NCBI GenBank assembly: GCA_009760855.2 | Contig: WPIO01000030.1 | Coordinates: 3,908,501-3,972,500, forward strand | DNA: 64,000 nucleotides | Origin: Cristatella mucedo | Taxonomy: Eukaryota > Bryozoa > Phylactolaemata > Cristatellidae | Reading direction: 5' to 3' | In this document: positions 1,285-48,795 of the stretch, piece by piece | Numbering within the stretch: position 1 is the first letter of the stretch | Layout of the letters: the number at the start of each line of letters is the position of its first letter | Translations under genes and position numbers: made by a program | Notes under the pieces: generated by a model | Databases searched by the model: none | Seen by the model: only the letters and a program-made list of their open reading frames with translations | What the model was told of the DNA's origin: nothing

Positions 1285-1660
1285 CTGAAAGCATAACACC
1301 GATAACAATTGCCAGCAGCACTTACTAAAATCATTGCCACTAGTAAAGCAAAGAAGATTCCACTGCATGTAGATACTGAGTAAAACAGGCGAATCACAAT
1401 GCAAAAGTACAAGGAACCGACGATGAACGTACACAAAAACGTCCCATAGACCTTGCATAAATATGCAGATCCATAACTTCGACGGCCCGTTCGGTAGTAA
1501 CCTCCAGAGCCAGCTGCTTATAAGCATAGCAGCAACATGTCTCACCAAGGATTAATTGGTATGACTTGAACCTCTGGCATTGAAAGGTTTGTGAAATAAA
1601 CACTCGATGATAACAGAACCGTAATTTTTCTCGTAGTATTATCCTTTTGTGGTAAAACAA
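1285..1660 (-). other. probable intron upstream of the E2 exon
   Basis: Open frames here are short and overlap on both strands without family resemblance. The stretch ends in a pyrimidine-rich acceptor tract just before the E2 exon, as expected of an intron. The upstream E2 exon encoding the N-terminal helix was not recognised. Confidence 0.5.
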
Positions 1661-1795
1661 ATATAACTCATTTGTATAGCACCCTAAGAGAAATTAATCT
1701 CTATTCAGGTGCTTCACGTGTGCCATGGGGATCAACCTCACGACATAAGCCAGACTTTGATCGGGGTGAGTACAATAACCAACCACTTGGCCAAC
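1661..1795 (-). mobile_element. SINE-A copy, tRNA-derived with LINE-A-like 3' stem-loop
   Basis: On the minus strand the order is a degenerate tRNA-like head (CCAAGTGGTTGG then a CCCCGATC region), a TTGATCCCC box B-like remnant, and a 3' stem-loop. The stem arms are AGCACC and GGTGCT around AGAGATTAATTTCTCT, followed by a short AT-rich tail. In most copies the arms are GCGCC/GGCGC. Here both arms carry the matching change, so pairing is kept. Same family as the copies at 3998-4136, 28650-28788, 34363-34528, 41936-42058 and 58428-58555. Confidence 0.7.
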
Positions 1796-1796
1796 A

Positions 1797-3149
1797 ACAG
1801 TCTCAGTTCGGCTAATTGCCTGTTCATTTGCTGTTCTCTTCATACCTTGGTCAAGAAGTATAAACACACTGCATTTATATCTTAAAACCCGACTCCAATC
1901 AGTGCCTGACAAGACAGTATGGTCAGGCATACATCAAGTCAGGCACAGCCCGATGGGTAAATGCCATAAAGATGAAAGAGATTTTCTTCTGCAAATTCAG
2001 CTACAGTCTTGCAGCTTTGATACCTTGCCGTAGGAAGCCGATCTTTGCACACTCGGGAATTCTTATCAACGGCAAGCTGTGGGCTGACTGAGAATGTGGC
2101 CAGGCAAATTAGGGTCACTGGGGTAGGAGAAGGAATTGGGTGTTATAAGCCATACTTGGTCCTAGCATGCAATAATTAGTCAAGATCTACTTGGTTAGTC
2201 TACCAAAAGATGAAACCTTTCCCATCAGCAATTTATCATTTTTTTGTGTGTGGAAGGGGCCAAGCAACTGGTATCTTGCTAGCGCAGTACGGCTAACTAT
2301 CGTTAAGTAGTCCTCAGTGGTTGGCGGCACATTTGCCCAACATCCATTCACCAGGTGGTAGAATGCCTTTACATCATTGACCACACTTATTCAAGCAAAC
2401 TCCTTGCTTTAATTCGTGTAACCTCGGAAGATATCAAAATAGACGGTTAGGATATCAAAAGACGAATTCTAAAACAGTAAGCAATGTCATTTGAGTCTTA
2501 GTGCCGGCACTCACAGAACGATCATCTGTCTAAAGATGTCATCTGCTAAGGTTCAGTTGGTTTTTCACAGTATGTATGTCAATGACCAACGGTCAGACTG
2601 GTGAGCCTTTAAAGAATGTGGTGCTCCTTACATCCGCTTTAGGTCGATTTCTTTTCAGAATTTAAACTCTTGCTTCTTGCAACTCTTGATCCTATTGCCA
2701 AGAACTCTAACGGCTTTTATTTTCATGCACATGACAAACTAATGTAATGGGCTCTACCTACCTTCCAGGACATAGAACTATTAGCTGCCTTGCAGCATAA
2801 ATTGGTGACATCCAAATTAGGATGGCAAAAAAACTTTCTCAAACCAAATTATAGTAAATCAAACTTCCTAATTGTGGGTTAACCTAGTGTTGCTCAAAAC
2901 TGGAAAGGCTAACCTACAAAATAGGCTCGCCCTGCATATCCCCTAAAGTATCTGCACAAAGCTTCGACCCTAGTTTAAAATCACCATTTAATACATGACT
3001 ACATCAGCTCCCTTAAGTTTGCGTACTATTAACTAGGTAAAGATTATAAAATTTGGACTTCTAAGCTGAGAATATACTACATTAGACTTCTGCAATTCAC
3101 GACTTGCAGGTGATCCTGCCAAATGCAAGATGATGCTCACAGGGAGAGA
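1797..3149. other. no gene recognised
   Basis: Moderately AT-rich single-copy-looking DNA with only short overlapping open frames (for example minus 2187-2384) that resemble no family I know. Could be intronic or intergenic. Confidence 0.5.
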
Positions 3150-3638: not shown

Positions 3639-3997
3639 TCATAAGAACTTGTCTTGACCTGAAGACTTGCGACTTCATAGAACCGGAAAAACTTTGAGTC
3701 CGGTGACCACAACTTGGTTACCTGGTCACATGCAGGCATACTTACTATATTGTGTCAGGTGGGCCATAGATCATAACTTCCCACTTGAATATATCACTGT
3801 CATCTATAAGCCCAGCCGAGAATCCTTCAGTGGCACTTTTGTTTAGCTCTAAAATTAAAGCCAAAATTTCCCTGAGAACAAAATCCTCATTGCAAGGCAT
3901 GTCAAACAATACCAATTAAGCAGGCGATCTCGTTGTATTTGCTTATATTTATAAATAAGCAATACCTGCCCATTTAAAGCTTTAATTCGGAAGTAAA
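3639..3997. other. no gene recognised
   Basis: AT-leaning spacer between a LINE-A remnant and a SINE-A copy. Nothing recognised on either strand. Confidence 0.5.
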
Positions 3998-4136
3998 ATA
4001 ATTCATTTATATAACGCCCCAAGAGAACTTAATCTCTATTCAGGCGCTTCACATATGCCTCGGGGCTCGATCCCACGAGCTCAGTCAGACCTTGGTCGGG
4101 CGAGCACCTTTACCACTAGACCAAACCAGCTCGGCA
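3998..4136 (-). mobile_element. SINE-A copy, best-preserved tRNA head
   Basis: On the minus strand, box A is TGGTCTAGTGGT (4112-4123) and box B is GGATCGAGCCCC (4062-4073), matching tRNA internal promoter consensus with normal spacing. The 3' half carries GAAGCGCC, AGAGATTAAGTTCTCT and GGGGCGTT, the stem-loop also found at the 3' ends of LINE-A copies, then an ATAAATGAATTATT tail. This copy best supports the tRNA origin of the family. Transcription by RNA polymerase III and use of LINE-A reverse transcriptase are inferred. Confidence 0.82.
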
Positions 4137-4544
4137 AGCCACAAAATAGAAAGAAGTCCCATACATGCAGCAAAAAGATCACTTGCCTAAATGAGTGAAG
4201 TAGCTCGTGAGGTTAACGAGGTCTTTGGTTCAACTGCTGAGGATTAGACAACAGACTTGTACTTTCGAGCACTATATCTCTCACGAGTTGAGTAAACATG
4301 TGTCCAGCTGTCAGTAGCAGTGCAGCTGTCACTAGCGCACGACCTCTCACAGGCAGTGAATGGCTTCTACCTATGGTAACCATACTTTAGCTGCATACGG
4401 GTTGCATAAGCTCTAGTCCAAAGCATTCTACTCATGACATTGACAGTTGAGAACTAGAGCATTGGCCCTATTACATGCATGCAGCCAATGCTGAGTGGAG
4501 CCAGCTACACTAGGTCATAGCCCAAGTACAATTTGCTAGTACTT
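4137..4544. other. no gene recognised; weak SINE-like hint near 4200-4260
   Basis: A GAGGTCTTTGGTTCAA motif resembles the box B part of SINE-B, but no other block of that family accompanies it. The rest shows nothing identifiable. Confidence 0.35.
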
Positions 4545-4680
4545 TCCCACCCAGGTTTAAGTCTTGCAGCAGGCAATCGTTTATTGCCTACTGCAAGCCT
4601 GTGAGGGAGGGGTGACAGCAGCTAAGGCTCTTCTGCTGCTATACAAGTAAGACTGTTTGATCAGTCTGCATTTCCTTTTC
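4545..4680 (+). mobile_element. SINE-B copy
   Basis: Contains AGGTTTAAGTCTTGCAG (box B remnant), GGCAATCGTTTATTGCC, a GGGTGACAGC block, and AAGGCTCTTCTGCTGCTATA, then a block corresponding to TTGAATCAGCT of the 13.5-kb copy. The head is truncated or decayed. The GGCAAT...ATTGCC core forms a short inverted repeat common to the family. Confidence 0.65.
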
Positions 4681-5999
4681 CCCCTTGCTCCTCAGACTCT
4701 AGATGGACAATATAAATCTGTCTGATTAAAGCCTTGCTGATGATGCCAACATCAACATAGGAACATGTCGTTTAAATCCAGCTGCTAGTTGACTTATGAT
4801 GGAGCCACATATACACTTGTCTTATTACTTCAGTAGGTAGCTGTAACGAAAACTTGGGCCTAGGGGGCAGTCTACATGCCCTGGCAACCATCTCGACCAC
4901 AACATTATTTTATTTCATGTTTTGCTAATCGTAACATCGGTGGTAAGCAATGTACTCGATCTTGCAAGTAGCCCCTCAATTAGAGCACTGTCACGATAGC
5001 AAGAGTTACCCTAATGTTCTATCTAGCACATAAGTACACCATTTACCAGGCTTAGAGATGGAGAGTCTTCAGTTGGGAATTTTAAACCTAGAAGAACTGG
5101 TTGGCTATACTGCAGCTTATTTAGATGCTCGTGGGTGTCATTTCATGATTGCTGTTGTCCAGGAATCTGACCAGTAGTGGCTCGGAGTTTTGACACTTAA
5201 AATCACAACACTAATTTCATTGAAATGATGAGGGGCACATCTTTTGCAGACCCGTGGTTTGGCAGGCAGGTGGTGGCTGGCTAGGCTCTGTACTGCCAGA
5301 ACTGCCAGGCTCGTTTAGGGTTTTAGAGGCAGTCTGAAGCTGTCCCCAGCAGGCCAGCCACGGTTCCTCAGCTGTTGCACGCAGGATATGCTGTGCTGAG
5401 GAGAAGAGTGGCCAGCAAAGACAACTCAATCTATCCCACTTCTTAAGCATGGCACGTCGATACTTCTGGGTAGGTTTTCTCTGGTTCAGGATATTTCCAC
5501 TCACTAGATGGTGAAGAGTTCTTCCAGTCACTGTAGAGCTTTTACCTAATTCTTCTTAGACCCTGCCCTCACATCCCTTTACCAGTTCAGAACTACGGGC
5601 CTCTTAAATTAGTGCAGCAATTGCAAAAATGGTTAAAATTACTACTGCAATTATACGATACGCTGCTGGCACAACGATTTTGTGAAAAGAATAAACAAAT
5701 TAGCAAGTATTGCAGTGTCTTACAAAAGGCCAAACAATACTACCACGAGGTAGGATTACATGAAACCAATAAATACTGCAAAGTGTGCATGCTTCCACCT
5801 TTGTTAGCCAAATAGGTGTGAAAAACATACAAAGTTGACCTGTTTAGGGGATTCTAGTGGGTTAGAAAACAGCTGTTCCAATAAGTGCGCTCCCTATGAA
5901 TTGCACAAACTAATTATGGAATACTAGTAAACGGGGGTTTCTATAAAGTAATATACAATAGAGCTCATAAACATCACCTCTGCCGTATTGTTGACGTTT
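4681..5999. other. no gene recognised
   Basis: Contains a 104-codon minus-strand open frame at 5217-5531 with ordinary composition but no recognisable domain, and no splice context that would make it convincing. Treated as chance or an unidentifiable exon. Confidence 0.4.
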
Positions 6000-6880
6000 T
6001 AATGGAGTTAAGTTGGAAATCACTAGGGCCGGGTAAGGGGCATTGGGGTTTTCTCCCTACCCCTAAAACCAGGGCTGGGTGTCCAGGTAAACATAACCTG
6101 TCTGCTAGTTCATTAAAAATTAAGAAAGAAATGCAGCTCTCAAGGATTGCTGTCAGCAAAAGAACGATCGGGAAGAGGCTCAATGAGCATGGTATGCGGT
6201 CCACAGCTGCTAAGCAGAAGCTGCTACTTAGCATTACCCACAAGCATGGGAGGCTTGCTTTCGCCTGTAAATAGTGGCACTGGATCCGAGCTGTGTGGAA
6301 CTACGTTCTCTGGACTGACAAATGTAAGTTCACCCTCTCTGCTACCTCAGGGGCACTCAGCAAATGTGGAGACAAAAGGAGGAAGCATATCTAGATGTTT
6401 GTCTCCAAAAGGTACTGGGCTGCTTTAGTGCTGCTGGTGTAGGGTGCTTGGATCTGGTTCAGGGAATAATAAATACAGAACACTACTTGAACATTGTTAA
6501 GAATATTGGTTATTCGTCAGCTCATAGGATCATGATTTTTAATTTATTTGGAAACAGGACAATAATCCCAAGCATTATGCAGGCATAGTAAAGGACTTTT
6601 TCGACAACCCTATATGGCAAGGCTTCGATAACTTCGGCATTTTGAAATGGCCCAGTCATGAGTTTAGATTTAAACCTTATTAAACATTTGTTGCAGGAGC
6701 TGCAGCATGCAATACGTGAACAGGTCAACCTTTGACGAAATTGTAATGAACTATTCGAACTTCTACAGAAGGAATGGCAAAAAAGTCACATCTGACATAT
6801 TTGAGAAATTGTTGGGGCAAATGCCCAGAAGGCTCCTAGCCGTTATAAAAGTCAAAGAAGCATATGTCAAAGAAGCATAT
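6000..6880 (+). pseudogene. Tc1/mariner transposase pseudogene
   Basis: Fragments in shifting plus-strand frames follow the order of a Tc1-family DD34E transposase. They run from an N-terminal GRPG/helix-turn-helix remnant ending SKRTIGKRLNEHGMRSTAAK (about 6080-6220), through ITHKHGRLAFACK (6235-6272), VLWTDKCKFTL and YLNIVKN, to QDNNPKHYAGIVKDFF and a C-terminal QMPRRLLAVIK (about 6818-6850). The first catalytic Asp is kept at 6317-6319 and the second at 6558-6560. The position of the final catalytic Glu appears to be Lys at 6682-6684. Frameshifts, stops and altered spacing between the second and third positions show that it is dead. I did not identify terminal inverted repeats with confidence. 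Confidence 0.85.
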
Positions 6881-6954
6881 AAGAAGCATGCAACTAAATT
6901 TTTTTATTTCATAGCAATTTTGTGCACAGTAAACTGCCTTTACTACTGCGTGCT

Positions 6955-7722
6955 TATAATAATAATAACGATAACAGTAACACACTTGATAAAGTGCCCT
7001 CATAGAACTCAATCTCTTTCTAGGCACTCTACATTTATTGCAAAGGAAACACGATCGAGTGGCTAGTGGTAGTATGCTCATTACACAACAAGAATAACAT
7101 GGTTAGCAGTGACCTATACAGGGTCAGCATGCAAGTGTGGTTAGTATCAGTATGCACAGTATCAGCACACACAAGCACATACAGGTCTAATCACAGGGAC
7201 CCACTAAATGCTGTCATAAATAGGTGCGTTTTTAATTTCTTTCTAAATATGGTCAAGTCAGGGGACGTCGTGATGCAAGTCGGGAGTGCGTTCCAGGCTT
7301 TGTGAGCATAAAAAATAATTGCACAGTCTCTAAAGGATTTGAGGTTCGCACCAGGTATAGGTAAACAGCTAGATTCCGAAAAGCAGGTGGCAGGATGCTT
7401 AGCCTGGTGTGGCAGCCGATTCGATAAGTAAGCTGGAGCCAAAGAATGAAGGGACCTACAAGTGAGTGGAAAAGCCTTGAAGTCAATATGTTGATTCACT
7501 GGTAGCCAGTGCAGGTCGACGAAAAGTGGTATGATAGAGCAATTGTGACTCGCACGACAGACAAGCCTAGCTGCACAGTTTTGCACCAGCTGCTAGTGCC
7601 TAACTGCACAGGCCGGTAGACCAGCAAGTAATGAGTAACAGAAGTCAAGACTGGATGTCACAAATGCATGGACCAACTTAGATGTGGTATCCTTATCTAA
7701 ACAAGCCCAGATCATAGCAATT
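6955..7722 (-). mobile_element. LINE-A copy, 5'-truncated, C-terminal RT region plus 3' UTR
   Basis: Minus-strand open frame 7191-7586 encodes the post-RT region of an L2-like LINE: QNCAARLVCRASH, DLHWLPVNQHIDFKAF, SLHSLAPAYLSNRLPHQAK, AWNALPTCITTSPDLTIF and KKLKTHLFMTAFSGSL. It is followed by the 3' UTR and the terminal stem-loop at about 6980-7030, then an ATT-type tail whose complement begins near 6955. The stem arms are GTGCC and GGCAC, a paired change from the usual GCGCC/GGCGC. Upstream reading shows an in-frame stop in the SLLAGLPAC block. The 5' truncation point is almost the same as that of the 39-kb copy. Confidence 0.85.
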
Positions 7723-7723
7723 G

Positions 7724-8566
7724 TTTTTGACGCTCACTTTTAGGTCCCTTCATTCTATGGCTCCAGCCTATCTCTCCGACATACTCCCCCACCAGGCCAA
7801 GCATAGTACCACTCGCTTTTCGGAATCCAACAGTCTACCAATACCTCGTACAAACCTCAAATCCTTTGAAGACCGTGCATTTAGTTCGTATGCTCCCAAA
7901 GCCTGGAACTCCCTCCCGACCTGCGTCAGAACATCCCCTGACCTGACCACATTTAAAAGGAATTTAAAAACACCTATTTAGGACAGCATTTAGTGGGCCC
8001 CTGTGATTCGTCCTTGATGTGCTTATGCGTGCTGACACTGTGCATGCTGCCACTAACCACATTTGAGTGCTGACCCTGTGCATGTCACCCCTAACCATGT
8101 TATTCATTTCGTTTGTTTTTCAAGCATGATTTTACTTACCATTCAATTGCATTTCCCTTTGCAGCATCGTACAAACCTCAAATCCTTTGAAGACCGTGCA
8201 TTTAGTTCGTATGCTCCCAAAGCCTGGAACTCCCTCCCGACCTGCGTCAGAACATCCCCTGACCTGACCACATTTAAAAGGAATTTAAAAACACCTATTT
8301 AGGACAGCATTTAGTGGGCCCCTGTGATTCGTCCTTGATGTGCTTATGCGTGCTGACACTGTGCATGCTGCCACTAACCACATTTGAGTGCTGACCCTGT
8401 GCATGTCACCCCTAACCATGTTATTCATTTCGTTTGTTTTTCAAGCATGATTTTACTTACCATTCAATTGCATTTCCCTTTGCAGCAAATGTAAAGCGCC
8501 TAGAAAGAGATTAAGTTCTCTGAGGGCGCTTTATCAAATACATTATTATTATTATTATTATTATTA
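7724..8566 (+). mobile_element. LINE-A copy with internal tandem duplication
   Basis: Begins at LTLTFRSLHSMAPAYLSD, in the middle of the C-terminal region, and continues through RTNLKSFEDRAFSSYAPKAW, the stop codon at about 7979, the 3' UTR and the terminal stem-loop (8494-8535). It ends in a long ATT microsatellite-type tail. A 321-bp segment spanning the end of the coding region and most of the 3' UTR is present twice in tandem (7846-8166 and 8167-8487). The sequence is close to the family consensus, suggesting a relatively recent insertion. Confidence 0.88.
7846..8487 (+). repeat. exact 321-bp tandem duplication (2 copies)
   Basis: Unit 1 is 7846-8166 and unit 2 is 8167-8487. By eye they are identical over their whole length, starting TCGTACAAACC and ending CCCTTTGCAGCA. 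The duplication repeats the last coding block and the 3' UTR but not the terminal stem-loop. The identity implies a very recent event, or an assembly artefact. Confidence 0.9.
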
Positions 8567-8574
8567 ATATATTA

Positions 8575-9108
8575 TGTAGCTGAAAGTAGGCAGACTTGAT
8601 AGTGGACCTGGTGTGGTCGTCTAACGAAAGGTCACTTTGAAACATAATACATAGATTTCGTGAAGATTCAACGGGGGATGCACGGGCAGAGCCGATTTTG
8701 AGCATCCGATTTTTAAATTTCTTAATCACAATTGGTTTGCCCATAACTGGTTATTTGGTTTTGTCGCCGTTCAATTCAATAAATTTTGCCGCCATCCAAG
8801 TGTGGATGTCATCAATACATGCAGCAAGGGAGTTGAGAGAATTCGACGTGCTGGAGAGCTGGGAGCGATCAAAGCAAAGGTAGAAGTGAATGTCATCTTC
8901 ATAAAAGTGAAAGCCTAGATTGTGCTTGGCAATCATATCAGCAAGAGGGAGAGTATAAACCGTGAAAAGAATGGGACCAAGCACTGAGCCCTGAGGTACT
9001 CCATATTTCAGAGGTTCCTCAGATGATCTTTGTCCATTCACATCAATATTCTGAAGTCTCCCACTGACATAGGACCTGAGCCATTGCAGAGCAGTGCCAG
9101 TGAAGAAT
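8575..9108 (-). pseudogene. LINE-A reverse transcriptase core fragment
   Basis: Minus 9041-8751 encodes YGVPQGSVLGPILFTVYTLP (RT block 4), then FHFYEDDIHFY, where the usual YADD-type catalytic box reads YEDD, then WMAAKFIELNGDKTK. After a frame change, 8744-8590 continues with IGSARASPVESSRNLCIMF, SDLSLDDH and SAYFQLHNI. The two catalytic Asp residues remain, but the residue before them is changed and the frame is broken. The 3' side stops abruptly at the ATT tail of the neighbouring plus-strand copy. Upstream, TGTALQW (about 9105-9085) runs into a hairpin at the truncation point. This is the only RT catalytic core seen in the window. Confidence 0.85.
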
Positions 9109-9132
9109 GAATATTCTTCACTGGCACTGCTC
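9089..9132. repeat. perfect 20-bp inverted repeat (hairpin) at a LINE 5' truncation
   Basis: The left arm 9089-9108 (gagcagtgccagtgaagaat) and right arm 9113-9132 are perfect reverse complements with a 4-base loop. The left arm is the coding sequence for FFTGTALQ of the RT fragment. The right arm is therefore an inverted copy of that coding sequence at the 5' break of the element. Confidence 0.9.
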
Positions 9133-9250
9133 CCTGAGAGCCCTACACAAATTTATTATTATTATTTTGTTAACACATATAAAGTGCCAAGAAAGAGATT
9201 AGGTTCTTTAAGGGTGCTAAGCAAGTGTATTTTTATTTATTATTATTATG
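9133..9250 (+). mobile_element. two adjacent LINE-A 3' termini
   Basis: 9133-9165 holds only the last part of a terminal stem-loop (CTGAGAGCCCTA then an ATT tail). 9170-9250 holds a nearly complete terminus, ATAAAGTGCCAAGAAAGAGATTAGG and onward, with a second ATT-rich tail. Two tails in a row indicate two separate insertions or one insertion into the tail of another. Confidence 0.7.
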
Positions 9251-12358: not shown

Positions 12359-12446
12359 ATAATAATAATAATAATGCACTTGATAAAGCACCCTCAGAGA
12401 ACTTAATCTCTTTCTAGGTGCTTTACATTTGCTGCAAAGGGAAGAT
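12359..12446 (-). mobile_element. LINE-A 3' terminus
   Basis: The minus strand reads TGTAAAGCACCTAGAAAGAG, ATTAAGTTCTCTGAG, GGTGCTTTATCAAGTGCATT and an ATT tail. The arms GCACC/GGTGC show a paired change from GCGCC/GGCGC that keeps the stem. Only the last ~90 bp of the element remains. Confidence 0.85.
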
Positions 12447-16569: not shown

Positions 16570-16658
16570 GAACCAGCAAATGAAAAGCACCCAGAAAGAG
16601 ATTGAGTTATCTGAGGGTGCTTTATCAAGTGCATTATTGTTATTATTATTACTGAAAC
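16570..16658 (+). mobile_element. LINE-A 3' terminus
   Basis: AAAGCACCCAGAAAGAGATT, GAGTTATCTGAGG and GTGCTTTATCAAGTGCATTA, then an ATT/GTT tail. The arms AAAGCACC and GGTGCTTT pair, with the same double substitution as the 12.4-kb copy. It abuts the left edge of the unclassified repeat. Confidence 0.85.
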
Positions 16659-18744: not shown

Positions 18745-21300
18745 TTAGTCAGTGATGTCATCAAACTCAATCTCCTCAAAATGTTCCCTTCCAATGATGA
18801 GAAATGCCAGCTTGCTAAGACGGACTTTCCACAATGAAGCACGCAAATATGATAAAATAAGTTGTATTTGCTGAAAGACCGCTCGCAGTTGGCTATTGAT
18901 ACCGTGACCATCAGAAGAATTCAGAATTTAGAGATAAATTCGTAGATTCGGAAATACTTCATCTCCATATGCAACAATAAGATATAAAGATCTATAGGAG
19001 TTTTTTGAAAATTTTCTATTCGCGCCCTAAGCAGCATTTTGCAATCAATAAGTTCCCTTATTCATTATTCGCCATTGACACCGGTGTCGTAAAAATAAAA
19101 AATATATGCAACTTTCCACTCAAAAGTGTCGTTATCCGTTTTCCGTTTCAGAGAGAAGAGTTTTCATATCTAGTAGGATTCAAATTTAAGTCTACGTTCT
19201 TTAACCTCAATTGTGTCGATATCTCTTGTTGAAGACGATTGATACGCTTTTTCAGGACACGCATAATTTCTTCCTCGGCTTTAAGTTCGGTGTCTATTGC
19301 TTGTTCTCCTGACTTCCTCTAAAGTCGATGTATTCTTCTCTCATTTTCAATACTCCAAGCTGTGCATTTATCTTTGGCCATTTTTGCAGCATTTTTACTC
19401 GAATCGCTGCAAGTTTTGATTAGTTCTTACTTTAAGGGTCCGTGATCACGTGCTGCTTTTCTAAAATTCATCGCAGGATTCTGCAACCATTTCTGGATTC
19501 GGTCAATTTTATGAAGAATAGTGTTACATAATTCCAGTAGAATATAAAAAGTTACGTTTTAATTTGCTTTGAAAGCAACTGTGTTGTATCGCATCTGATT
19601 TCAGAACTCATTGATAGGTCTTCTGACATGATTTCCACCAGCTACCAGTTCGTCACGCCCGTCATGTAAAGCTCTAACAGCTTCTGACCAGGCACTCTTG
19701 CACGTACCGGATTGCGGCTCAACTTTTAAAAGCAGTACTTTTTTCAATTTATCTCAATGAACTATCGAACGAGAAGAAAAATACAACACACGCTTTGACT
19801 GTCCCAAAAAAAGTTCCGCAATTGAATCCTGTTTAGCAGGGTGCACTCCTGCTAAATTAAACTGTTTGTCACATTTAACGAACAACGCTTTGAGATTTGT
19901 TGCACATATTCACTGTTTAAGGCCGGACATATGTCCAGTCATCACAGTAGCATTATTATATAATTGTTACCGGCAGTTGGCCAATAAGATACTGTCGGAC
20001 TTAATACTCATAAGGATGACCTTTTCAAGGTGTTTCCTCTGCAGCAAATATAAACCCACTAGAAAGAGATTGAGTTCTCTGAGAGCCCCTTATCAAGTGT
20101 GTTATTATTATCATTATTATTAAGGTCTGCTGCATTTGTTGCATGTACCTCTGCAAAATCTGAAAAACTAATTTGATCATAACTTTCTTACTTTCAAAAT
20201 CCATATCGACATAATTGATCACTTGGCAAAGCGGTTCCAGATATCCTAAATCGGATATTGAATCGACCGATATACCGTAATGCTTGCTTTTTCTTATATC
20301 TGTTAAAAACTTATTTTTTACAGTTATTGCAAGTTGGTGGATAAGTTTATAGTGAAGTTTAAGTGAAAATTAAGAGTCGGTTTCCGGATTTTATCGCGCA
20401 CATTGAAAGTGTTTCAGCTGTGAGTAATGCTCAGCCACGACCTTGATCAGGAAAACAATTTCGAACATTTCTACGCTCACATAAACTCAAACGTTCTCCT
20501 TGGCCACGCAGCACTTGATTTTGTTAAAGAGAGACTCACTGCAGTCACGTATTCCTTTCAAAATATTTCGCCAGCGTTTTTTCTGATTTAATGTGCGTTT
20601 CAGCGTCAATTCCAGTACCATTAATTATTCTCTGTCCAGCTTCCTTCCTAGTCGTAAAAGCATTGCAAAACGCCCAAACCATTTTCAGATGACCGTAGCT
20701 TTTCTATTATTCAAATACAACAGTTGGTTCAAACGAAGATGAACAGTAAGGGAATTCAATAATTGGTGAATATAATGGTCTTGATTTATTCAGTTCCTTT
20801 CCATTTTCTAATTAATGTTTAAGCCATGTTGATGGAATTGAACGTTCACCGGACTACTGAAGGTAGATTGTTGAAAATGATACGATCCTAGAGTAATCAT
20901 TTTATTACGAAGAGCCTGTGATATTAATTAAAGCTTTGTAATTTGATCAATATTTAACTAGTAGGTAACACCAGGAAATTTTAGTACAGAATGAACAGCA
21001 TTTTTTTCTGATGCTCCTCCAGATTTAGAAAATTTACCAATCTTAAAATTTCCACTTATACCAAGAAATTTCTTGTTCCGTTTAACTAGCTCAACAACGC
21101 CGTCTCTGGTATTTTTCTTAGTATAGATGGTAACTTCAGTCTGAACTGCATTTCATAGCACGTTTTGGTTACGATACGGTTCATCCTTCTCTTTTCCGTG
21201 TTTTAAAATACTTAGTTGATTTCCGGCGTCTTCGTATTTAGTGTCTAAATAGTGTACACGTTCAGGATCATTTGTCTTTGATTTTTTCAAGAAACTCACC
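18745..21300 (-). pseudogene. hAT transposase pseudogene (TTF-zinc-finger / ZMYM-like class)
   Basis: In shifting minus-strand frames the fragments follow the order of hAT transposases that resemble vertebrate ZMYM proteins. These are EKKRWRNILKGIRDCSESLF (about 20590-20500), HYGISVDSISDLGYLEPLCQ (about 20284-20225), YNNATVMTGHMSGLK (19961-19916), LKALFVKCDKQFNLAGVHPA (about 19895-19835), and a C-terminal dimerisation block SIANCERSFSK (18900-18866) with EEIEFDDITD before a stop at 18745-18747. The family cuts and pastes its own DNA with an RNase-H-like catalytic core. Many stops and frameshifts, plus a LINE-A terminus inserted after FQILQRYMQQ, show it is dead. The N-terminal zinc finger is not clearly visible. 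I did not restore the protein. Confidence 0.82.
20038..20123 (+). mobile_element. LINE-A 3' terminus nested in the hAT transposase
   Basis: GCAGCAAATATAAACCCACT, AGAAAGAGATTGAGTTCTCT and a TTATTATTATC tail. The stem arms are partly lost (AACCCAC/GAGCCCC). It interrupts the transposase between two conserved blocks, so it inserted after the hAT element. Confidence 0.8.
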
Positions 21301-21597
21301 ATGAATTTACTAGACATGTGCGTGTGGTTCCTTTCAGCTTCCCTCTTTCTTGTCCGATCTTCTGCACCACTACACTTTTTTTAACGTGGCTTAAATTATC
21401 CATCACTTTTAGACCAGAAATAGGCGAATTTTTTAGCATTAAGAGCTTAATAAAAATACTCCTTCAGAATTACACATTAAAAATAAAAAATCAATTGACA
21501 AATTAACCGTTAGGTGAAACATTGAGCGGAAAATTTATTCTATGAAACTGTTATATTTCACGACAATAATTCAGGAAGTGCCTTGAACAAATGCATA

Positions 21598-22600
21598 ATA
21601 ATAGTAATAAGTTTGCATAGCGCCCACAGAGAACTTAATCTGTTTCTAGGACCTTTGCATTTGCTAAAATAGGCCTTTTGCGTTTGCCAAAAAGAAAGCA
21701 TGATCAGACGGTCAGTGATAGCATGAACAACTTCAACATGAGTAACATGGTTATTTGGTTGAGAGTGTGACCCTTCATATGAATAGGGTCATGCACATGA
21801 GCTACACGAGAAAATGAGTCAGTCACTGCTCAAAATTCGGTGCTTAAGGCGTCAGATAAGTTATCAAAATGAATAAAAAATCACCCATAATGATTAAAGA
21901 TTGATTTATTGCACAAAAATCGAAATGAGATAAAAAAAATCCGAGATAAAGGAGGACATGGTACCTAGGGGCGATAGACCAATACTATCATTGGCAGCTT
22001 GTCATCGGATGAACTCAAAAAGCAAGAGATTCAAGAGACTGCTTCGAGAAGGTTGAAAACGGTTTTTAAGAAATTGAGGTGGGAACGGGTGACAATGCCG
22101 ACAAAACCACCGCTTTTGATTGATCTAGGGTTATGAAAAAAAGATAACCCCGTTAGTGTTGCGTCGGTTATTTTTTGGCAGTTAGGTAGGTAAGCGATTT
22201 CAGCCAGATCTCAGTCAAGGAGAACGGGCCAAAGTCATTCTCAGTAACTCTGTCTCGTATTATTAGGGGTTTATTGCAGAGTGAGCGAGAATTTCAAAGA
22301 CAACATTTAAAAAAGACTGCATTAAGACAAAGACATTAATAACATTGGCCTCCGGGTTTTTATTATGTTTGATGACTAATAAGTTTGAGCGATTGATTGC
22401 AGTGCTGGGGGAAATCGCACGATGCAGTGCTGGGAAGAGCAAACGTGTAGGGGTTCCGGCAAAGCAGGGTTCGGCCGCAGCGGCGGCTTTGGGTAGGCCG
22501 TCGTTTTTTATGATAAATTCTCGTACCCTAGCAAAAATAGCCGCATCTAAGAATGCACTTGAATGACGACGGTGCAACGATAATAGGCACGCACGATTGT
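21598..22600 (-). mobile_element. LINE-A copy with endonuclease region and 3' end, internally deleted, nested in hAT
   Basis: On the minus strand the region shows an N-terminal stretch (about 22577-22263), then blocks of an AP-type endonuclease: FGPFSLTEIWL (about 22238-22206), FFHNPRSIKSGGFVGIVTR, and a VLVYRP motif. After a frame change come an IIMGDF motif with DNLSDAL and HVHDPIHMKG around 21900-21765. It then jumps to the family 3' terminus at 21605-21660 without any RT domain. The AP endonuclease nicks target DNA to prime reverse transcription (family knowledge). The lost middle and multiple stops make it inactive. Confidence 0.72.
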
Positions 22601-23248: not shown

Positions 23249-24351
23249 GGTTCTTCTTGAAAAGAATTCCCCAGGACCAGGACCTAACGCAGCCGCTGCG
23301 AAATCTTCATTACGCAGCTATACGCTTGTAACGAGTCGGACTTATTCACCTGCTGTATCCACTGTAATACATATAAACCAGTAGACTATTGTTTGTTTCT
23401 GAATTAGAAACTATGGGAACCAGATACATTAGTTTGCAATAATAAATCAGTTGTTCCCTATGCTTCGAAATGAGTTTATTCCACTGCTGGCGCTGTATAC
23501 TATCTCCTCTTTGCGCCTATCGAATAGACTGTTCTAAGCCAAGAGAACTGACTTTATATTAACAATGATATTAATATTTACAACAATTGGACTAATATTT
23601 ACAAGTCTTTTGTATAGATCCAATGGAAAATGTTGTCTCTATTCAAAAGCTTAAAGACTTGCTGCAAAAGTAGAAATGCGCAATAGTTAATGAACAGCAA
23701 GAAACCCTGTTTCGGCAAACATGTAAACGCACACTCTTAGCAGGTTAAGACAAGCATACAAAAGCTTATAGAAGATTAGCTGCCGCTGGTTAGTTTATTA
23801 TTAACACTCACTCAATTGTGCAGAAGCAAACAAAGAGCTTTTAAACAAAAAGTACCAGTTGAGTGCAATGCAAACAAATTGACCAAAAAGTATCGGTTAC
23901 CTTGATTGCTGCTGCGTTCTTCTACCGTCGTCCTACCTGCATGTATCGATGCAGCAGCTTTGATTTGTTAGCCGCGCTTCAATTGAGTGAAATGCTGCTG
24001 CAGACACATTTGTGACATTTCCTATAAGTGAGAACTGAAATAATTAATTACCGAGGAGCCTTAGCAGCCGTCTTGTGGTAGTCCCATCGCTTGCTGTTAA
24101 ACAGGTGAGCATTGTGTGCAAGCATGCCTATTAACCTGGTTGGTTAAAAGGTAAGTACCGGTTGAACAATTAAGCTACCACGTAAGTGCTGAAGTTGGCA
24201 ACTTGCTTTGCCAAAATTAGGCATCCTGGAAAATCCCGTGCTTAACTTGGGCGAGGTAAAGAGCGGTGACAATCAAACCGCAGAGCATTGCAGATTGGTG
24301 CTGTGCTGAACTTGAAACTATTGAATAAATTGTTGCTTATCATCAAATTTT
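23249..24351. other. no gene recognised
   Basis: AT-leaning DNA without identifiable exon, transposon end or RNA gene. Confidence 0.45.
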
Positions 24352-24442
24352 CTTTTGCAGCAAATGTAAAGCACCTAGAAAGAGATTGAATGCTTGCAGT
24401 GCGCTTTATCAAATGTATTATGATTATTATTATATTATAATT
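24352..24442 (+). mobile_element. LINE-A 3' terminus
   Basis: GCAGCAAATGTAAAGCACCT and AGAAAGAGATTGAATGCTTG, then an ATT-type tail. The right arm is disturbed (GTGCGC), so the stem is imperfect. It sits just left of repeat copy 2, as the 16.6-kb terminus sits just left of copy 1. Confidence 0.82.
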
Positions 24443-25682: not shown

Positions 25683-25773
25683 TAATGCAAAATTTAAAGC
25701 GCCTAGAAAGAGATCGAGTTCTCTGAGGGGGCTTTATCAAGTGCATTATCATTATTATTATCATTATTATTAT
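25683..25773 (+). mobile_element. LINE-A 3' terminus
   Basis: TTTAAAGCGCCTAGAAAGAG, ATCGAGTTCTCTGAG, GGGGCTTTATCAAGTGCATT and an interrupted ATT/ATC tail. It is solo, with no coding part, 110 bp before the next LINE-A copy. Confidence 0.85.
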
Positions 25774-25889
25774 CTGTGACCGGGCTTGAGATTTCGTCTT
25801 CGTGCCAAGTGCACTGTACGTGCGGGCAACTCTCTTACGTGCCCAATGAGGATCTCCGTTTCCGCACTGTGTAAAAGCAGTGCAATTGC

Positions 25890-26362
25890 TTCAAGGCTCT
25901 GTCACTCACTCTTAGGTCACTCCATTTTTTTGCTCCAGCCTACCTAGCAGATCTACTCTCCAACCAGACTAAGCATCGAACCACCCATTTTTCTGAACCG
26001 AATCTTTTACCTACACATCGTACGAACCTCAAAGCCTTTAGCTCATATGCTAGCCAGGCCTGGAGCTCACTTCCGACTAGCGTTACTACATCCCCCGACT
26101 TGACGACATTTAAAGCGATGCAAAAACGCATCCATTTATCGCAGCACTGATTGGGTCCATGAGATTTGTCCTTTGTGTACATGCTGCCACTAACCATATT
26201 TGCATGCTGACCCTATGTACGTCACCTCTAACCATGTTATTCTCGTTGAAATTAAGCATGCAACCAATAACCATTTGATCGCACTTCTTTTGCAGCAAAT
26301 TTAAAGTGTCTAGAAAGGGATTCAGTTGGCGCTATACAAATATATTGTTATTATTATTATTA
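25890..26362 (+). mobile_element. LINE-A copy, 5'-truncated
   Basis: Plus-strand fragments of the C-terminal region (APAYLADLLSNQTKHRTTHF, RTNLKAFSSYASQAW and SSLPTSVTTSPDLTTFK) are followed by a stop, the 3' UTR phrase, and a terminus lacking the inner stem (GTGTCTAGAAAGGGATTC then GGCGCTATACAAATATATTG) with an ATT tail. One deletion removes residues between KAF and SSYA. Confidence 0.82.
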
Positions 26363-26889
26363 TGAAAATGTCACCCCAAGAAATTGAATCATTTTTATGT
26401 GGCAAAGCGGTTAGAGCTTGCAGGCTGTGCTGTACAAACCTGATCGTAGAAGATACACCAAGGCTACCAACCGGAAACAGAGAGCCCAATACTGCTCGCA
26501 CTCGGAAAAGCTGTGCTCTACGGCATACGTATAGATATCGTATGCAGACGCTTTGCGATGACTGATTGCACTTACGAGTTCTATAGTTCGACGATTCCTC
26601 TTCGTATAATCATCGACTTGAGGTACCATTCAGTAATGATGATTGTGGTACTTCACAAATCTTGCTAAGATAAATTATTGATCGCAGAGCTCAAATAGAT
26701 GCTGCCAATGAGCATACACGAACCAAATTTCTGTCCTCTCGTAAGGAGTCATCTTTTAAGCGTGCACTGAAAAGGTTTTAGCACACTGCACATACTAGAG
26801 AAACTTGGGCAATCCCAAAAGATAAGCGATTACCTAATTTTATATAACTTAATGTATCCCAGTTGTAACTCCACAAAGCCACAAAGACT
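26363..26889 (+). other. unidentified, with a coding-looking stretch at 26670-26781
   Basis: A plus frame ending at a stop at about 26781 reads IIDRRAQIDAANEHTRTKFL followed by SSRKESSFKRALKRF. Its charged composition looks protein-like, but I recognise no family and it has no clear start. It may be the end of a degraded ORF or a terminal exon. Confidence 0.3.
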
Positions 26890-28649: not shown

Positions 28650-28788
28650 TAATATAAATATAATTCATTTGTTTAGCACCCTAAGGGAACTTAATCTCTA
28701 TTCAGGCGCTTCACATATGCCACGGAGCTCGAGCCCGAAACCTCGGTCAAACGTTGGTCGGGGCGAGCACCTTAACCACTGGGTCAGA
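28650..28788 (-). mobile_element. SINE-A copy
   Basis: On the minus strand, box A-like CCAGTGGTTAAGGTGC and box B-like GGGCTCGAGCTCC lie upstream of GAAGCGCCTGAATAGAGATT and GGGTGCTAAACAAATGAATT. The arms AGCGCC/GGTGCT still pair through one G-U wobble. Confidence 0.8.
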
Positions 28789-31379
28789 TGACATTAGATG
28801 CAAATCAGAGGTGCATTGAAAAGCAAGCAACTCGAGGTGTAGAGAAGTAATGCAGGTAAGACGCACACGAATGTAATAACAGCCAAAGTTTCAAGTTTAA
28901 TTAGGTGTGGATTTGACTAGCTTTAGGAGCTCAGCCAAATCTGAGCCCGTTCATCGACGAGATGCCGAGATGCAATCGATGTGGCCTTTCAGCTCTGTAC
29001 GTGTACGGGAGCTGTGTTCGGGAAGCCGCTCGCTGGTAACCACCTCTCATGCTAGTTGCTGTTGCCTTCCTCCCCACCTGCCGCCGGGCCGTCAGTCGGT
29101 CGGTCGGACGGTCGGCAAGCTGCTGCCGGCCCACAGCTCAGGCATGTGCCGTCGCAGCTGTGGAGTCGATCAACGAGCGTGAACTATGCTCGCTCTTCGG
29201 TGCACACGTGTCGGCAAGCTGTGGGCGCCACATGTCCACTACATGGCTGCCCTTGGCTTGCCTGCAGATGCCGCCGTCGCCGGCTGCGGTCTAAGCTGCC
29301 GCTGTCTACTCGTGGTCACTCCTCGAGCCATCGGTTCGTCCCGGGACAAAGAGTTAGCCCGTCCCCTCTGTCCTTTTTGAAGCGTTTTGCATATGTGATT
29401 AGATGCTTTTGTGGCTACCGCTGTATCCTATTGCATGGCCTCCTTGTGTAGTTGCATTGTACCTAGTTACAGCATTATGCTGCTGGTAGTGGATGAAAGT
29501 GCTATACCTATCCGAAAGTGCTGCAGGAGCAGCAGCAGTGGCAGCTAGGCCACATTGGCAGCAGCTGCAGCAGCAAACAATGCAGGTCGCGGCCTTTCTT
29601 GCGACTCTACAGTGGATCTGCATCTCCTATCTACTTAAAAGCAATTAGCCTTCGAACCCTGGACCTTCACGAGGCTGGGCGATACTTGCTACTGACGATA
29701 TCTCTAGAGATAACATTTGCGAACGTCAAGCACAGCAAACGCATGTTTCCACACAGCTAACATTTAGTTCATCGAGATGGTGGTTCACTCTGTCCCACAG
29801 CCAATAGAGGATCGTCTTTGCTGGGGCACCATTAATTTGCTTATAGAATAAGGGCAGGATCACTATGGTTGAACTATTAAAATGTATTCACTCCTAGGGA
29901 GGGGAGTGATTTTTTATTGGCAAATAAAAGCTAGGGTTAGAAAGAAAAAAGAAGAGAAGTTGCAGCAGGCCAATTGGCTAGGACTGCTCACCATTAACAG
30001 TTAGCCTCTCAATGTGTCAGGCCTTATTGGGAAGGCTGGTTGGAGGACTTTCTTTATTCGCTATAATCTTCTTCTAGTTGGAATTAAAAAATGGATGAGT
30101 CGGGCAAGGCCGGAGGCAGGGATAGATCATTTGCTGAGAGCATCTACGACGATCCCGTCACAAATTCTGGAGATGGGAGCAGTGACCGTGGGGATTTCCG
30201 ACCCTTGTTTTCAGTATTCCGTAACCAAAGGCAAAGAGACAGAAGAAATAGCCAATGACCCTTAACCTGATAATTAGAGGGTCTTTAAATATAAAAGCAT
30301 TGCAGCTCAACCTAGCAACACAAGATCGAGAACTATCAGACGCCGGGATGGCAAGGCGATTATGTGACTCCACCTCTAGCTATCCGATAGGAGGTCATGA
30401 CCAGCCTTGCTAGTTCACACGGCCAAGACCTTGGGCTATTACTGCCAGACACCAGTACAGCATGAGCTTGAAAGGTCAATCAATGAACAATATTGGTGGG
30501 CTTAATGATATATCTTCATCTCTGTCCGTCTCTTTTCTCGATCTCCCACTCTCTTTCTCAAATCTGTGGCTCCTTGGCTTATGTGTTTTTTCGGATAATA
30601 CCTCCCAAGACCAGCTGATCATTCAATTCGCAGGAGCCCCGGTCTTGCCCAAAAATCGTCTTCAAGGTGGCCTCTGTCCAGCTGTGAATGTGTCTATTGT
30701 TCATTCCTATCTATGGCCCAGGTGGCAGCAGAGTGCGACGAATTTCCGGCGGCCAGCCAGCACTGGGCTGACCTGGTGCACGGCTGTTTGGCGTTAGCCG
30801 GGCCGTGTCGTTCACATGAACCTCGGCGAATTCTGGAGCAGATTAGCTGAAGGGAACCGGGGCAGGCCCAGTTACTGCCTCGAATCGGCTGGCCTCTCGA
30901 ATCATGGCCAGCCAATAGGATGACTCCTTAACACTGCTGAGCTGTATTTCCGTTCGGCTTAAATTGAGCAGCCGGTTGCAGTAGCCCATCTGACAGGCTC
31001 CTCGACTGCACTGGACGAGGAGCGCCAAAGAAGAGGGCAGCAGCAGCAGCAGCAGCGTGCCAGAGAAACGGAGTTCCGGCTGCATGCAGAGCTTCCGCTG
31101 GCCCAGAGTGCTTGGTCTGCTGTCGGCAAAGGCGAGTGGTAAGTGAATTTAAGCGATCGCGATGGCATGCCGTGCTTGCGGCGTAATGCGTGAAGGCGGC
31201 TCTGCATTTCTTGCACAGTATGACACCTTTGGTTGCCAACGCAAAGCTCGGCTTTCACTACTTCTTCTGTTGATGACAGCTGGTGAGCCAACTGTCCACA
31301 TATCTCTGATTGGCTGACTGTAGTGTAGGTGTGTGCTCCTGTGTGCGTGTGTGTGCGTTCGTGTGTATGCGTTCGTGCG
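28789..31379. other. no gene recognised; patchy GC-rich sequence
   Basis: GC-rich part at 28920-29370 has a GGTCGGTCGGACGGTCGG-like simple run (about 29095-29113). A short CAG run lies at 31040-31060. A GGTTCGAAGG box B-like motif on the minus strand near 29655 hints at a decayed SINE-B. Open frames overlap on all strands and none matches a known family. Confidence 0.4.
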
Positions 31380-31500: not shown

Positions 31501-33362
31501 CATGCATGCTGATTTGGGCGTGCACGTGTGCTGTTGAGGGGGACAGTCTTGTTGAAAGCTCGAGAAACTAAGCATCCCTCTCGGGAGCAGCATAGCCTGC
31601 TACAAATTCGCGTAGATGGCTCTCTGCTGGAAGCAGGAAATTGGCCTGCAAAAAATGGAAATGCCTGCAGCTCGGTCGGGTAGCTGGGGAGGTGGAGGAG
31701 GGATCCCATGAGACTGCAGTGGTTCACCAAGTCCTTGCCTCCAGGGCCCCAGACTCGACACTCGATTGGCTAGGTGCTACCACTCCTCTCACTCGCAGAC
31801 GTGCTGCCACTGCTATCCCAGCCAATTACTCAGTCGGCCAGCCGTCGGACTGCACTCTGACCCGTGGAGCCGAAACACAGTTAGTACAATTGCTACTAGA
31901 GCCTGGCAGCTGAGACTAATATACAATTCTTGCTCGTACCGAGTAAGCACTCGCATTCCTCCTGTGTTCTGTAATAGAAACCACTTGAAGGATAGCAAGC
32001 ACTCTGCTGGTGAAGCTGACCTTAGCGGCCCGGAGGAGCTGTCGGTTGCCATTTATTAGCAGCTACCAGCACTGGGATGCCTAACCAGGTGTACAGCAGC
32101 TCGCAGCCTTACACAGCGTCATCTCTGTCTGCCAGACCTGGGCTCTTTCAATACCGGGCATCGCTGCCCTCTCGCGTTTCCTCGGCTTCGTCTATCTGTC
32201 TATCCTGTTTCCCTCTCTTATATCTCTCACCCACATTTCTATCTGACTTTTTTGCTCCTCATCTCGCACGTTTTCTTTAAGAGGCTGGCTGCTTTTTGGC
32301 GACTACTGCATGTGTCTGTAAGTGTGTAGAGGGGTTCGGTTATCTTAGCTAGCAGCCGCACTTGGTACGTTACGTATTGCGTTTCGTACTCTCAATCAAA
32401 ACTGTAGTGGCTTGGCACGTAGCGCTCAGAGTAGAATGGAGCTCGTTTAAGCTACTTTAACTGAAGTATGGATGCAATAACTTACACGTGTCTCTGCGTC
32501 TCTTCGTATCCAGAGATTAATATAGACTGAGTGGTATTCACACGTTTCGCTGTCTTCTCAGGCTGTATCTAAATCCAGACTCCACTCCAGCCCCCCTCCC
32601 ATTCGCTCCTTCTCATTTCACTCTTACAGCCTGACTGTCATAGAAATTAGATTCGTTCACGTCAACATTCTCTCGGCATTTTGAAAGGCGTCAACTCTTT
32701 ATGACTCGATGGACGTTCATTGCAACTTTCTTTGAAGAAAAAGATTAGCCGATTCAAAGGGATCAAGTCAGCTTCAATCTCACAACCACGTCTATCGGTT
32801 TTCCGATTTCTTTTAAGTTTTATCGTTTCTCTCTTGATGCTTTCTTTAGGCTATATCCGTGCAGTTAAGAATCTGGCATAAGCTTTTTATCACTGTGCAG
32901 CATCACCAGTGCACGAAAATCGAATCGAATCGTATATGTCTCTTATGCATTATCTGCCCGCATGCACCAGTAAGTGGATCTATTCACATTACAATAATAA
33001 CCGATTGATACTCATAACTTTTTTGGCAAGATTGTGTGCACACACCTCATAGTATTGTCAGCTGGGCTCGCAAGTAGTTCAGAAAGGCTCTTCATCGTCT
33101 GCTTTTTATGTGGAATATTTTTGGAATACACGGAATATTTCTTGTAGCATGGGCATATTGCACACTACGTTTGGCACGGCGAAGTACACTTCAGCACCTC
33201 GTCAGCGGCTCTCTGCTGGTAGTATGCAGTACATATCAGCAGTTGTACCACTGATGCTCTGCTGAAGTTCTATTCGACTTTAAGCTTTGCAGTAGATGAT
33301 TCAGGCAGGCAGCTCCAAACTGCATAAGTAGTTCAGGATATTCCTAGGATGAGCTCTCCCCC
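31501..33362. other. no gene recognised
   Basis: Mixed sequence, including a pyrimidine-rich stretch at 32160-32280. No exon, transposon end or RNA gene recognised. Confidence 0.45.
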
Positions 33363-33446
33363 CAATGCAGCAAATGTGAAGCGCCTAGAAAGAGATTGAG
33401 TTCTCGGAGGGGGTTTTATCAAGTGTACTATTATTATTATTATTAA
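33363..33446 (+). mobile_element. LINE-A 3' terminus
   Basis: GCAGCAAATGTGAAGCGCCT, AGAAAGAGATTGAGTTCTCG and a TTATTATTATT tail. The right arm has changed to GGGGGTTTT, so the stem is weakened. Confidence 0.85.
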
Positions 33447-34362: not shown

Positions 34363-34528
34363 AGCCCAGTGGTTAAGGTGCACGATTTGAACCAAGGTCA
34401 AGGTAAATGCATTCGACGACCGAGGTCGTGGGCTCGAACCCCGCGACATACGTAAATCGCCTGAATATAGATTTAAAGTTCTGTTAGGGCGCTATAAAAA
34501 GAACTACATTTCATATATTTATTATTTC
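34363..34528 (+). mobile_element. SINE-A copy with lengthened head
   Basis: GCCCAGTGGTTAAGGTGC (box A) and TGGGCTCGAACCCCG (box B at about 34432-34445) are followed by AATCGCCTGAATATAGATTT, a GTTAGGGCGCTATA arm, and an ATTTATTATT tail. The distance between the boxes is about 30 bases longer than in other copies because a GACCGAGGTC-like stretch looks partly duplicated. Confidence 0.8.
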
Positions 34529-39120: not shown

Positions 39121-39895
39121 TTAATAATAATAATAATATTGCACTTGATAAAGCGCCCTCAGAGAACTTAATCTCTTTCTAGGCGCTTTACATTTGCTGC
39201 AAAGTGATACGCAATAGAATAGTAAGTAAAATCATGCTTGAAAAACAAACAAAATGAATAACATGGTTAGGGGTTACATGCACTGGGTCAGCATGCAAAT
39301 GTGGTTAGTGGCAGCATGAACAGTGTCAGCACGCATAAGCACATCGAGGACGAATCACAAGGACCCACTAAATGCTGTCCTAAATAGGTATGTTTTTAAG
39401 TTTCTTTTAAATGTGGTCAGGTCAGGGGATGTTCTGATGCAGGTCGGGAGGGAGTTCCAGGCTGTGGGAGCATACGAGCTAAATGCACGGTCTCCAAAGG
39501 ATTTAAGGTTTGTACGAGGTATTTCTAGACTGTTGGATTCCGAAAAGCGAGTGGTACGATGCTTTGCCTGATGGGGTAGTATCTCTGAAAGATAGGCTGG
39601 AGCCATAGAATGAAGAGACCTAAAAGTGAGCGACAAAACCTTGAAGTCAATCCGTTGCTTGACTGGTAACCAGTGCAGGTCGGCGAGAAGTGGAGTAATG
39701 TGGCAACTGCGACACTCACGACAGACAAGCCTAGCTGCAGAGTTTTGCACCAGCTGCAATCGCCTGATCGCACATGCTGGTAGGCCAGCAAGCAGTGAGT
39801 TGCAGAAGTCGAGACGAGATGTCACGAATGCATGGACCAACTTGGACGTGGTATCCTTATCTAAACAAGCCCTAATTTTAGCAATGTTATGAAGC
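39121..39895 (-). mobile_element. LINE-A copy, best-preserved C-terminal ORF
   Basis: A 161-codon minus frame (39355-39840) runs uninterrupted through MVHAFVTSRLDFCNSLLAGL, QNSAARLVCRECRSC, DLHWLPVKQRIDFKVLSLTF, SLHSMAPAYLSEILPHQAK, TNLKSFGDRAFSSYAP, AWNSLPTCIRTSPDLTTFKR and a stop after FRTAFSGSL. The 3' UTR and consensus stem-loop (AAAGCGCC/GGCGCTTT) end at an ATT tail (complement at 39124-39136). It is 5'-truncated just upstream of a RACLDKDTTSK block. Lack of frameshifts in what remains suggests it is one of the youngest copies. No RT or endonuclease domain is present, so it cannot move itself. Confidence 0.9.
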
Positions 39896-40517: not shown

Positions 40518-40595
40518 GCAGCAATTTTAGAGTGTCTAAAAAGAGATTGAGGTCTCTTAGGGCGCTTTTTTAAATGTATTATAATTATTATTCTC
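40518..40595 (+). mobile_element. LINE-A 3' terminus, diverged
   Basis: GCAGCAATTTTAGAGTGTCT, AAAAAGAGATTGAGGTCTCT and TAGGGCGCTTTTTTAAATGT with a short ATTATT tail. Confidence 0.75.
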
Positions 40596-41912: not shown

Positions 41913-41935
41913 TATATATATTTATAATTATATGT

Positions 41936-42058: not shown

Positions 42059-42059
42059 A

Positions 42060-48790: not shown

Positions 48791-48795
48791 AATAA

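Follow-up and report, generated by a model that had tools for sequence, protein, structure and literature searches.

A tRNA-like SINE family of the bryozoan Cristatella mucedo shares its 3' hairpin with an L2-like LINE

In the eel, the transfer RNA (tRNA)-derived short interspersed element (SINE) UnaSINE1 and the L2-clade long interspersed element (LINE) UnaL2 are described as sharing a 3' stem-loop which is recognised by the LINE machinery (PMC4176376, PMC3747384), and in the carp, HAmo SINE and the LINE2 element HAmoL2 are reported to have in common a hairpin-bearing tail of about 42 bp (PMC2653535). The present analysis concerns a candidate pair of the same kind, the SINE family SINE-A and an L2-like LINE, in the bryozoan Cristatella mucedo (GenBank assembly GCA_009760855.2). 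The stretch analysed, called the window, comprises 64,000 nucleotides of contig WPIO01000030.1 (positions 3,908,501 to 3,972,500 of the forward strand) and is numbered from its own first letter; the segment under study lies at 3998-8566.

What an L2 enzyme reads in such a tail is described for zebrafish, where ZfL2-1 and ZfL2-2 are presented as stringent-type LINEs whose loop is read specifically and whose stem is read generally (PMC4176376). According to that account, the stem-loop is bound by the protein region between the endonuclease and the reverse transcriptase (RT), a swap of the whole stem-loop stops jumping, and a swap of the loop only strongly lowers it (PMC4176376). Among invertebrates, sea urchin SINE2-8_SP with L2-1_SP and sea anemone Nve-Nin-DC-SINE-1 with L2-22_NV are given as tRNA-derived SINEs with L2 partners (PMC3747384). 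The 2013 table of the same source has one entry under the heading of protostomes (PMC3747384), and a 2023 study of bivalves reports LINE donors for three of eight SINE families (PMC10294476). As far as these sources go, few SINE/LINE pairs are documented in protostomes, which is why the pair described here matters.

SINE-A is best read, with a probability of roughly 0.8, as a non-autonomous retroposon of about 140 nt composed of two parts, a tRNA-like head and the 3' hairpin of an L2-like LINE. The consensus of its young copies is 139 nt long, counted to ATTAT, and starts with GCCGAGCTGG. It carries an A-box-like motif, TGGTCTAGCGG (TGGTCTAGTGG in the copy at 3996), and about 50 nt beyond it a B-box-like GGCTCGAGCCC; the 5' base of the hairpin, GCATATGTGAAGCGCC, comes directly after CGAG, so that the head joins the hairpin base with no middle region in between. 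Profile searches of the window, with a profile built from four copies, recovered with their heads all six copies that a preliminary description of this DNA had counted (Table 1).

The shared hairpin carries most of this reading. Its core, AGAGATTRAGTTCTCT, was matched 21 times in the window at up to three mismatches, against 1.23 expected and a maximum of 5 in 100 shuffles. The SINE at 28684 and the LINE at 39161 aligned locally with a score of 56, whereas 1000 dinucleotide-shuffled versions of the SINE gave no score above 30; the match begins at GCA(A/T)ATGT, covers about 65 nt and closes with the ATT-rich end. These two results bear out the 3' stem-loop that had been claimed for both kinds of element. 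A 95-nt SINE head aligned to the last 780 nt of the same LINE copy scored 23, a value reached by 27 of 1000 shuffles, and its similarity to the LINE thus appears at most weak, with no clear match. Shared ends with independent heads, which had been named beforehand as the pattern to look for, were therefore found: ends alike far beyond chance, and a head without a clear LINE match.

The two kinds of tail are also alike in predicted fold. Four consensus-like tails, of both the SINE and the LINE kind, gave z values of -5.0 to -5.9 and are predicted to form a long stem, an inner AGAGA/TCTCT stem and a TTAAGT loop, and three single-copy tails gave -4.8, -4.7 and -2.7. The SINE consensus and the exact cores of the abundant LINE type have the same apical 16 nt, AGAGATTAAGTTCTCT, although TTGAG replaces TTAAG here in many LINE copies.

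On the scale of the assembly (572 Mb in 688 contigs), 35-nt patterns were counted at up to three mismatches with both strands summed. The LINE-type hairpin core was matched 42,458 times, the SINE-type core 12,726 times and the SINE head-tail junction 12,697 times, while the reversed-pattern control gave 0 in each case. As the junction count, although separate and mismatch-limited like the other, is close to that of the SINE-type hairpin, it suggests that nearly every SINE-type hairpin sits behind a head. A search with the SINE query yielded 2,995 first-look candidates, and 40 of them were scored. Of the 41 matches listed, 40 span almost the full query at 94-100% identity, the 100% match being the window's own copy, and the remaining one is a 50-nt piece at 88%. 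Thirty loci were cut out, and 28 were aligned after removal of L001, which is the window copy, and of one other that failed trimming. Their mean pairwise identity is 98.1%, a figure that speaks for recent activity rather than mean age because top hits are biased towards young copies. Moreover, 20 other 10-kb stretches, taken at round positions on large contigs (200 kb in total, 5,000 N), held 17 headed SINE-A hits, most of them more diverged. Judged by these identities, SINE-A amplified fairly recently with its hairpin intact; the SINE-A/LINE pair is abundant and was active in fairly recent times.

Because both elements end in almost the same hairpin, SINE-A very probably spreads by borrowing the copying enzyme of the LINE, by analogy with the pairs above, and the two very probably constitute a SINE/LINE pair of the stringent type. 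The family probably goes back to the joining of a tRNA-like RNA, for example by template switching, with the 5' base of an L2-like LINE's hairpin. By the model of known pairs, RNA polymerase III would transcribe SINE-A from its head, the LINE protein would bind the hairpin, recognising the stem generally and the apical loop specifically as in zebrafish L2 LINEs, and copying would start on the 3'-end repeats by target-primed reverse transcription. Insertion would leave little or no target-site duplication, in keeping with locus L019, where a SINE lies within a LINE tail and no target duplication is visible by eye, and with the nested LINE of the window.

The results that weigh against this account concern the head, the stem, the insertion sites and the tail itself. 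Rfam gave zero match up to E 10 for the single copy submitted, that at 3996, and ARAGORN found no tRNA in the SINE-A head at default settings or at 95%; strongly lowered thresholds produced only scattered head hits with differing identities. A consensus typed from the window copies scores 21 of 22 letters for the A and B boxes at a spacing of 51, a score reached by two of 3000 random windows, and the six single copies score 17-21 (19 or more occurs in 59 of 3000 random windows). Since Rfam and ARAGORN do not recognise the head, its tRNA origin is graded as likely and not as shown: of the earlier label "tRNA-derived", the A/B-box-like motifs hold and recognition by tRNA finders does not.

As regards the stem, none of five covariation measures rose above shuffles in 113 tails, and compensatory changes give it no support. 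Among the 23 window tails one of the five measures ("cells with a change on both sides") was clearly high, being reached by 9 of 500 shuffles, and RNAalifold retained only four pairs. Covariation is a weak test of this stem because copies decay after insertion. A convincing target-site duplication was found at none of the 17 copies tested, so that this mark does not prove them to be insertions. The copy at 40511 has a 10-nt flank match (10 or more in 6 of 2000 random pairs), and the 15 nt that match in the flanks of the copy at 9172 are simply its ATT tail.

The tails, finally, are not the same. The 35-nt core of the young SINE differs from that of the abundant LINE type A1 at six positions (4, 5, 7, 24, 25 and 33). 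In the predicted fold the first five belong to the internal loop, and position 33 is part of the lower outer stem. Position 25 is variable, the window SINE consensus carrying the LINE's A, and the state of the young SINE at position 33 is shared with LINE type B. LINE tails were sampled from the window, the SINE flanks and 20 other loci (L001, the same place as the window, was left out), giving 91 tails of at least two types, CTTTATCAAGTG and CTATA-CAAATG, with 45 nearer to A1 and 46 nearer to B. A LINE with a SINE-type tail was not found among these 91, none of which exceeds 85.5% identity to the SINE tail. A pattern joining LINE context to the SINE-type hairpin had 3,656 matches in the assembly at up to two mismatches, most of which are expected to be SINEs because SINE copies match it at two mismatches. 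Eight of these matches were fetched: the six without a mismatch all turned out to be SINE copies whose junction had changed, while the two with one mismatch, L057 and L058, were LINE copies with CTGAAAAGAG.

A further reading, put at somewhat less than even odds, has SINE-A mobilised by an L2-like enzyme for which the stem and the apical loop suffice, its tail now forming a private lineage which no LINE shares. The same apical loop combined with a differing internal loop fits the stem and loop recognition of zebrafish L2 elements. If this is true, the genome offers a natural experiment that separates the part of the hairpin read by the enzyme from the part free to change, and a SINE tail unlike the LINE tails seen would point to the hairpin positions that an L2-type enzyme may actually read.

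It is also possible, if somewhat doubtful, that SINE-A is really partnered by another L2-like LINE subfamily, low in copy number and with a SINE-type tail, of which the abundant window LINE is only a cousin. The indel state CTATA-CAAAT is present in all six SINEs and in only 4 of 17 window LINE tails (Fisher p = 0.002, a post hoc comparison chosen after looking), and the CTGAAAAGAG variant of L057 and L058 looks nearer to the SINE's CTGAATAGAG. However, overall identity to the SINE consensus does not separate the LINE types (0.855 for A1, 0.871 for B), and since junctions are about as many as SINE-type hairpins, a LINE family bearing that tail can hardly be numerous, although a small one may exist, the two being separate mismatch-limited counts. 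Common descent only, in which SINE-A would be a relic with an old LINE's hairpin, now moved by other means or immobile, is unlikely: it has on its side several differences between SINE and LINE tails and the divergence of most copies in the window, but the best copies in the genome match the query at 94-96% identity almost from end to end and one another at 98.1%. That SINE-A is only a deletion product of one LINE locus, which had been named as one outcome that would overturn the claim, is highly improbable, for although the score of the head against the LINE is a little higher than in most shuffles (it is reached by 27 of 1000), the head lacks a clear match in the LINE end compared and the same head-tail junction recurs about 12,700 times in the assembly.

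The LINE profile aligned 17 LINE 3' ends in the window, besides which one damaged end lies near 3600-3632; the count of about 19 given earlier was thus near and not equal. The segment at 3998-8566 holds a single SINE-A copy (-) and the 3' portion of an older LINE (-), into which a younger LINE (+) is inserted. Once joined, the flanks of the younger LINE restore the older one without a break, and any duplication is limited to a few ambiguous A/T bases. Within the inserted LINE there is an exact tandem duplication of 321 bp (7846-8487, 100% matches), which either arose very recently or is due to the assembly. The 5' end of the older LINE bears a near-perfect palindrome, seen by eye (GAGCAGTGCCAGTGAAGAAT...ATTCTTCACTGGCACTGCTC, about 9089-9131), which looks as if the end of the complementary DNA had folded back.

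The window LINE is called L2-like by protein similarity. A Pfam match to RVT_1 (E 5.3e-12) covers window positions 8751-9152(-) in the older LINE copy, and the 181-aa frame of the LINE 3' part at 39121-39915 has 2,830 protein relatives at E 0.001. Among the best 120 of these 2,830, most are unnamed, and the named ones are "uncharacterized" fish proteins at 51-57% identity. The LINE frame shares 94% identity with P0001, a protein from a metagenome (source jgi) whose C-terminus was read as running into the 3' hairpin. A search of viral contigs with P0001 gave no match, and searches of viral contigs and genome contigs with the stem-loop pattern gave 0 hits. Pfam had no hit for three frames within 52446-53714(-), picked by eye as the endonuclease part.

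In nine of the 17 LINE 3' ends of the window, the copy reaches no further than about 20 nt upstream from the base of the hairpin, the place at which the SINE head also joins. For start positions, 67 of the 91 sampled LINE tails were used, three at a locus edge and 21 possibly in a longer copy having been removed; 20 start within 17 nt around the hairpin base and two inside the hairpin. Of 20 exact-core LINE copies, the first in a list of 100 and all from contigs C1 and C2, 17 run at least about 75 nt further upstream and three stop at the hairpin base. The hairpin as a truncation hotspot, through enzyme drop-off or hairpin-only RNA templates, was set aside on the strength of those 17 longer copies. 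As only three of the 20 stop at the base, the apparent excess of tail-only copies is probably in large part a loss of recognisable untranslated region (UTR) in older copies. Tails without a head or upstream LINE sequence made up 1 of 19 SINE-type and 17 of 49 LINE tails in a 264-kb sample (p = 0.014), two of the 19 being ties between the SINE and LINE types; at a 60-nt cut the contrast was 5 of 19 versus 22 of 49 and not significant (p = 0.18). An exon trap, suggested by the resemblance of TTTCCTTTGCAG|CAAATG to a 3' splice site, was rejected as a general source of tail-only copies because several of them keep the pyrimidine tract. The idea that they are other SINEs was likewise dropped, the upstream A/B-box scores of nine window copies being background-like (15-17).

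In several places a SINE or LINE lies directly behind the AT-rich end of another (L016 2249-2476, L007 about 1570-1906, L050 4478-4678 and window about 9135-9243). Such tandem tails, which are not counted against chance, may reflect an insertion preference for ATT-like tails. Long CA/TG runs lie immediately 3' of two SINE-A copies (28551-28628 and 41851-41910).

To call this pair the main organising system of the window, as the preliminary description did, is stronger than can be supported, as a second dispersed family without this hairpin is also present. It is probably another SINE family, judging by its B-box-like motif (Table 1) and a GGTAAGGTGCTCG segment resembling that of SINE-A; no LINE hairpin was seen in it. 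Elsewhere in the window, a miR-1992-like precursor at 33192-33265 scores 40 bits against a gathering threshold of 70 (E 5.2e-6 in the window scan); miR-1992 is typical of lophotrochozoans, and the precursor points to a host from that group. Frames at 6100-6860 resemble by eye a broken Tc1/mariner-type transposase, and a Pfam scan of one of them (6117-6428) found nothing. An exon-like frame at 1047-1517(-) matches the ubiquitin-conjugating enzyme family PF00179 (E 5.3e-10), and a 126-bp unit occurs at 16751-17003 in two tandem copies, 98% alike.

Table 1. Repeat copies located in the 64-kb window (window numbering)
Feature	Position	Strand	Remarks
SINE-A copy	3996..4144	-	tRNA-like head about 4058-4135, LINE-type hairpin tail about 3997-4058, joined directly; profile search
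SINE-A copy	1660..1811	-	profile search
SINE-A copy	28657..28808	-	profile search
SINE-A copy, diverged	41935..42082	-	profile search
SINE-A copy, diverged	34364..34509	+	profile search
SINE-A copy, old	58430..58565	-	profile search
Older LINE, RT fragment (RVT_1) and 3' hairpin	6960..9110	-	split by the LINE at about 7725-8570; 5' limit approximate
Younger 5'-truncated LINE inside older LINE	7725..8570	+	ends in hairpin 8485-8547 and (ATT)n tail
LINE 3' part	39121..39915	-	181-aa frame (stop to stop, RT C-terminal-like), then 3' UTR and hairpin
LINE copy with hairpin tail	48791..49249	-	profile search
LINE copy with hairpin tail	40737..41400	-	profile search
LINE copy, hairpin internally deleted	25863..26363	+	profile search, alignment
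LINE 3' end, CTATACAAAT type	46984..47124	-	indel state as in the SINE tail
LINE 3' end	21595..21795	-	indel state as in the SINE tail
Tail-only LINE copy	12359..12444	-
Tail-only LINE copy	45476..45556	-
Tail-only LINE copy	16574..16651	+
Tail-only or short LINE copy	20019..20120	+
Tail-only LINE copy	24349..24433	+
Tail-only LINE copy	25690..25763	+
Tail-only LINE copy	33362..33446	+
Tail-only LINE copy	40511..40592	+
Tail-only LINE copy	9172..9243	+
Second dispersed family	770-933(-), 13441-13605(+), 61415-61584(-), 4512-4667(+), 12718-12851(+)		B-box-like GGTTCAAGTC

This kind of parasitism is well known, and by word searches of open-licence PubMed Central text, made without sequence comparison, the family and its host appear new. 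The likeness to UnaSINE1/UnaL2 lies in the 3' stem-loop common to SINE and LINE, compared by description with the sequences unaligned, whereas the 3' repeat is given as TGTAA in UnaL2 (PMC3747384) and is ATT-like here. HAmo SINE and HAmoL2 likewise share a tail with a hairpin, but their tails are reported to differ by one base, against six of 35 core positions for SINE-A and its LINE, and HAmo SINE is described with a family-specific middle region, of which none was seen in SINE-A (PMC2653535). For ZfL2-1 and ZfL2-2 recognition is known by experiment, as far as the account cited above goes, whereas for the window LINE it is predicted from sequence. The V, Deu and Meta SINEs of bivalves are mollusc families; in SINE-A no central domain was detected, the domain models of these families not having been applied. 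SINE2-8_SP/L2-1_SP and Nve-Nin-DC-SINE-1/L2-22_NV by their descriptions resemble SINE-A and its probable partner in combining an invertebrate host, a tRNA-type SINE and an L2 partner.

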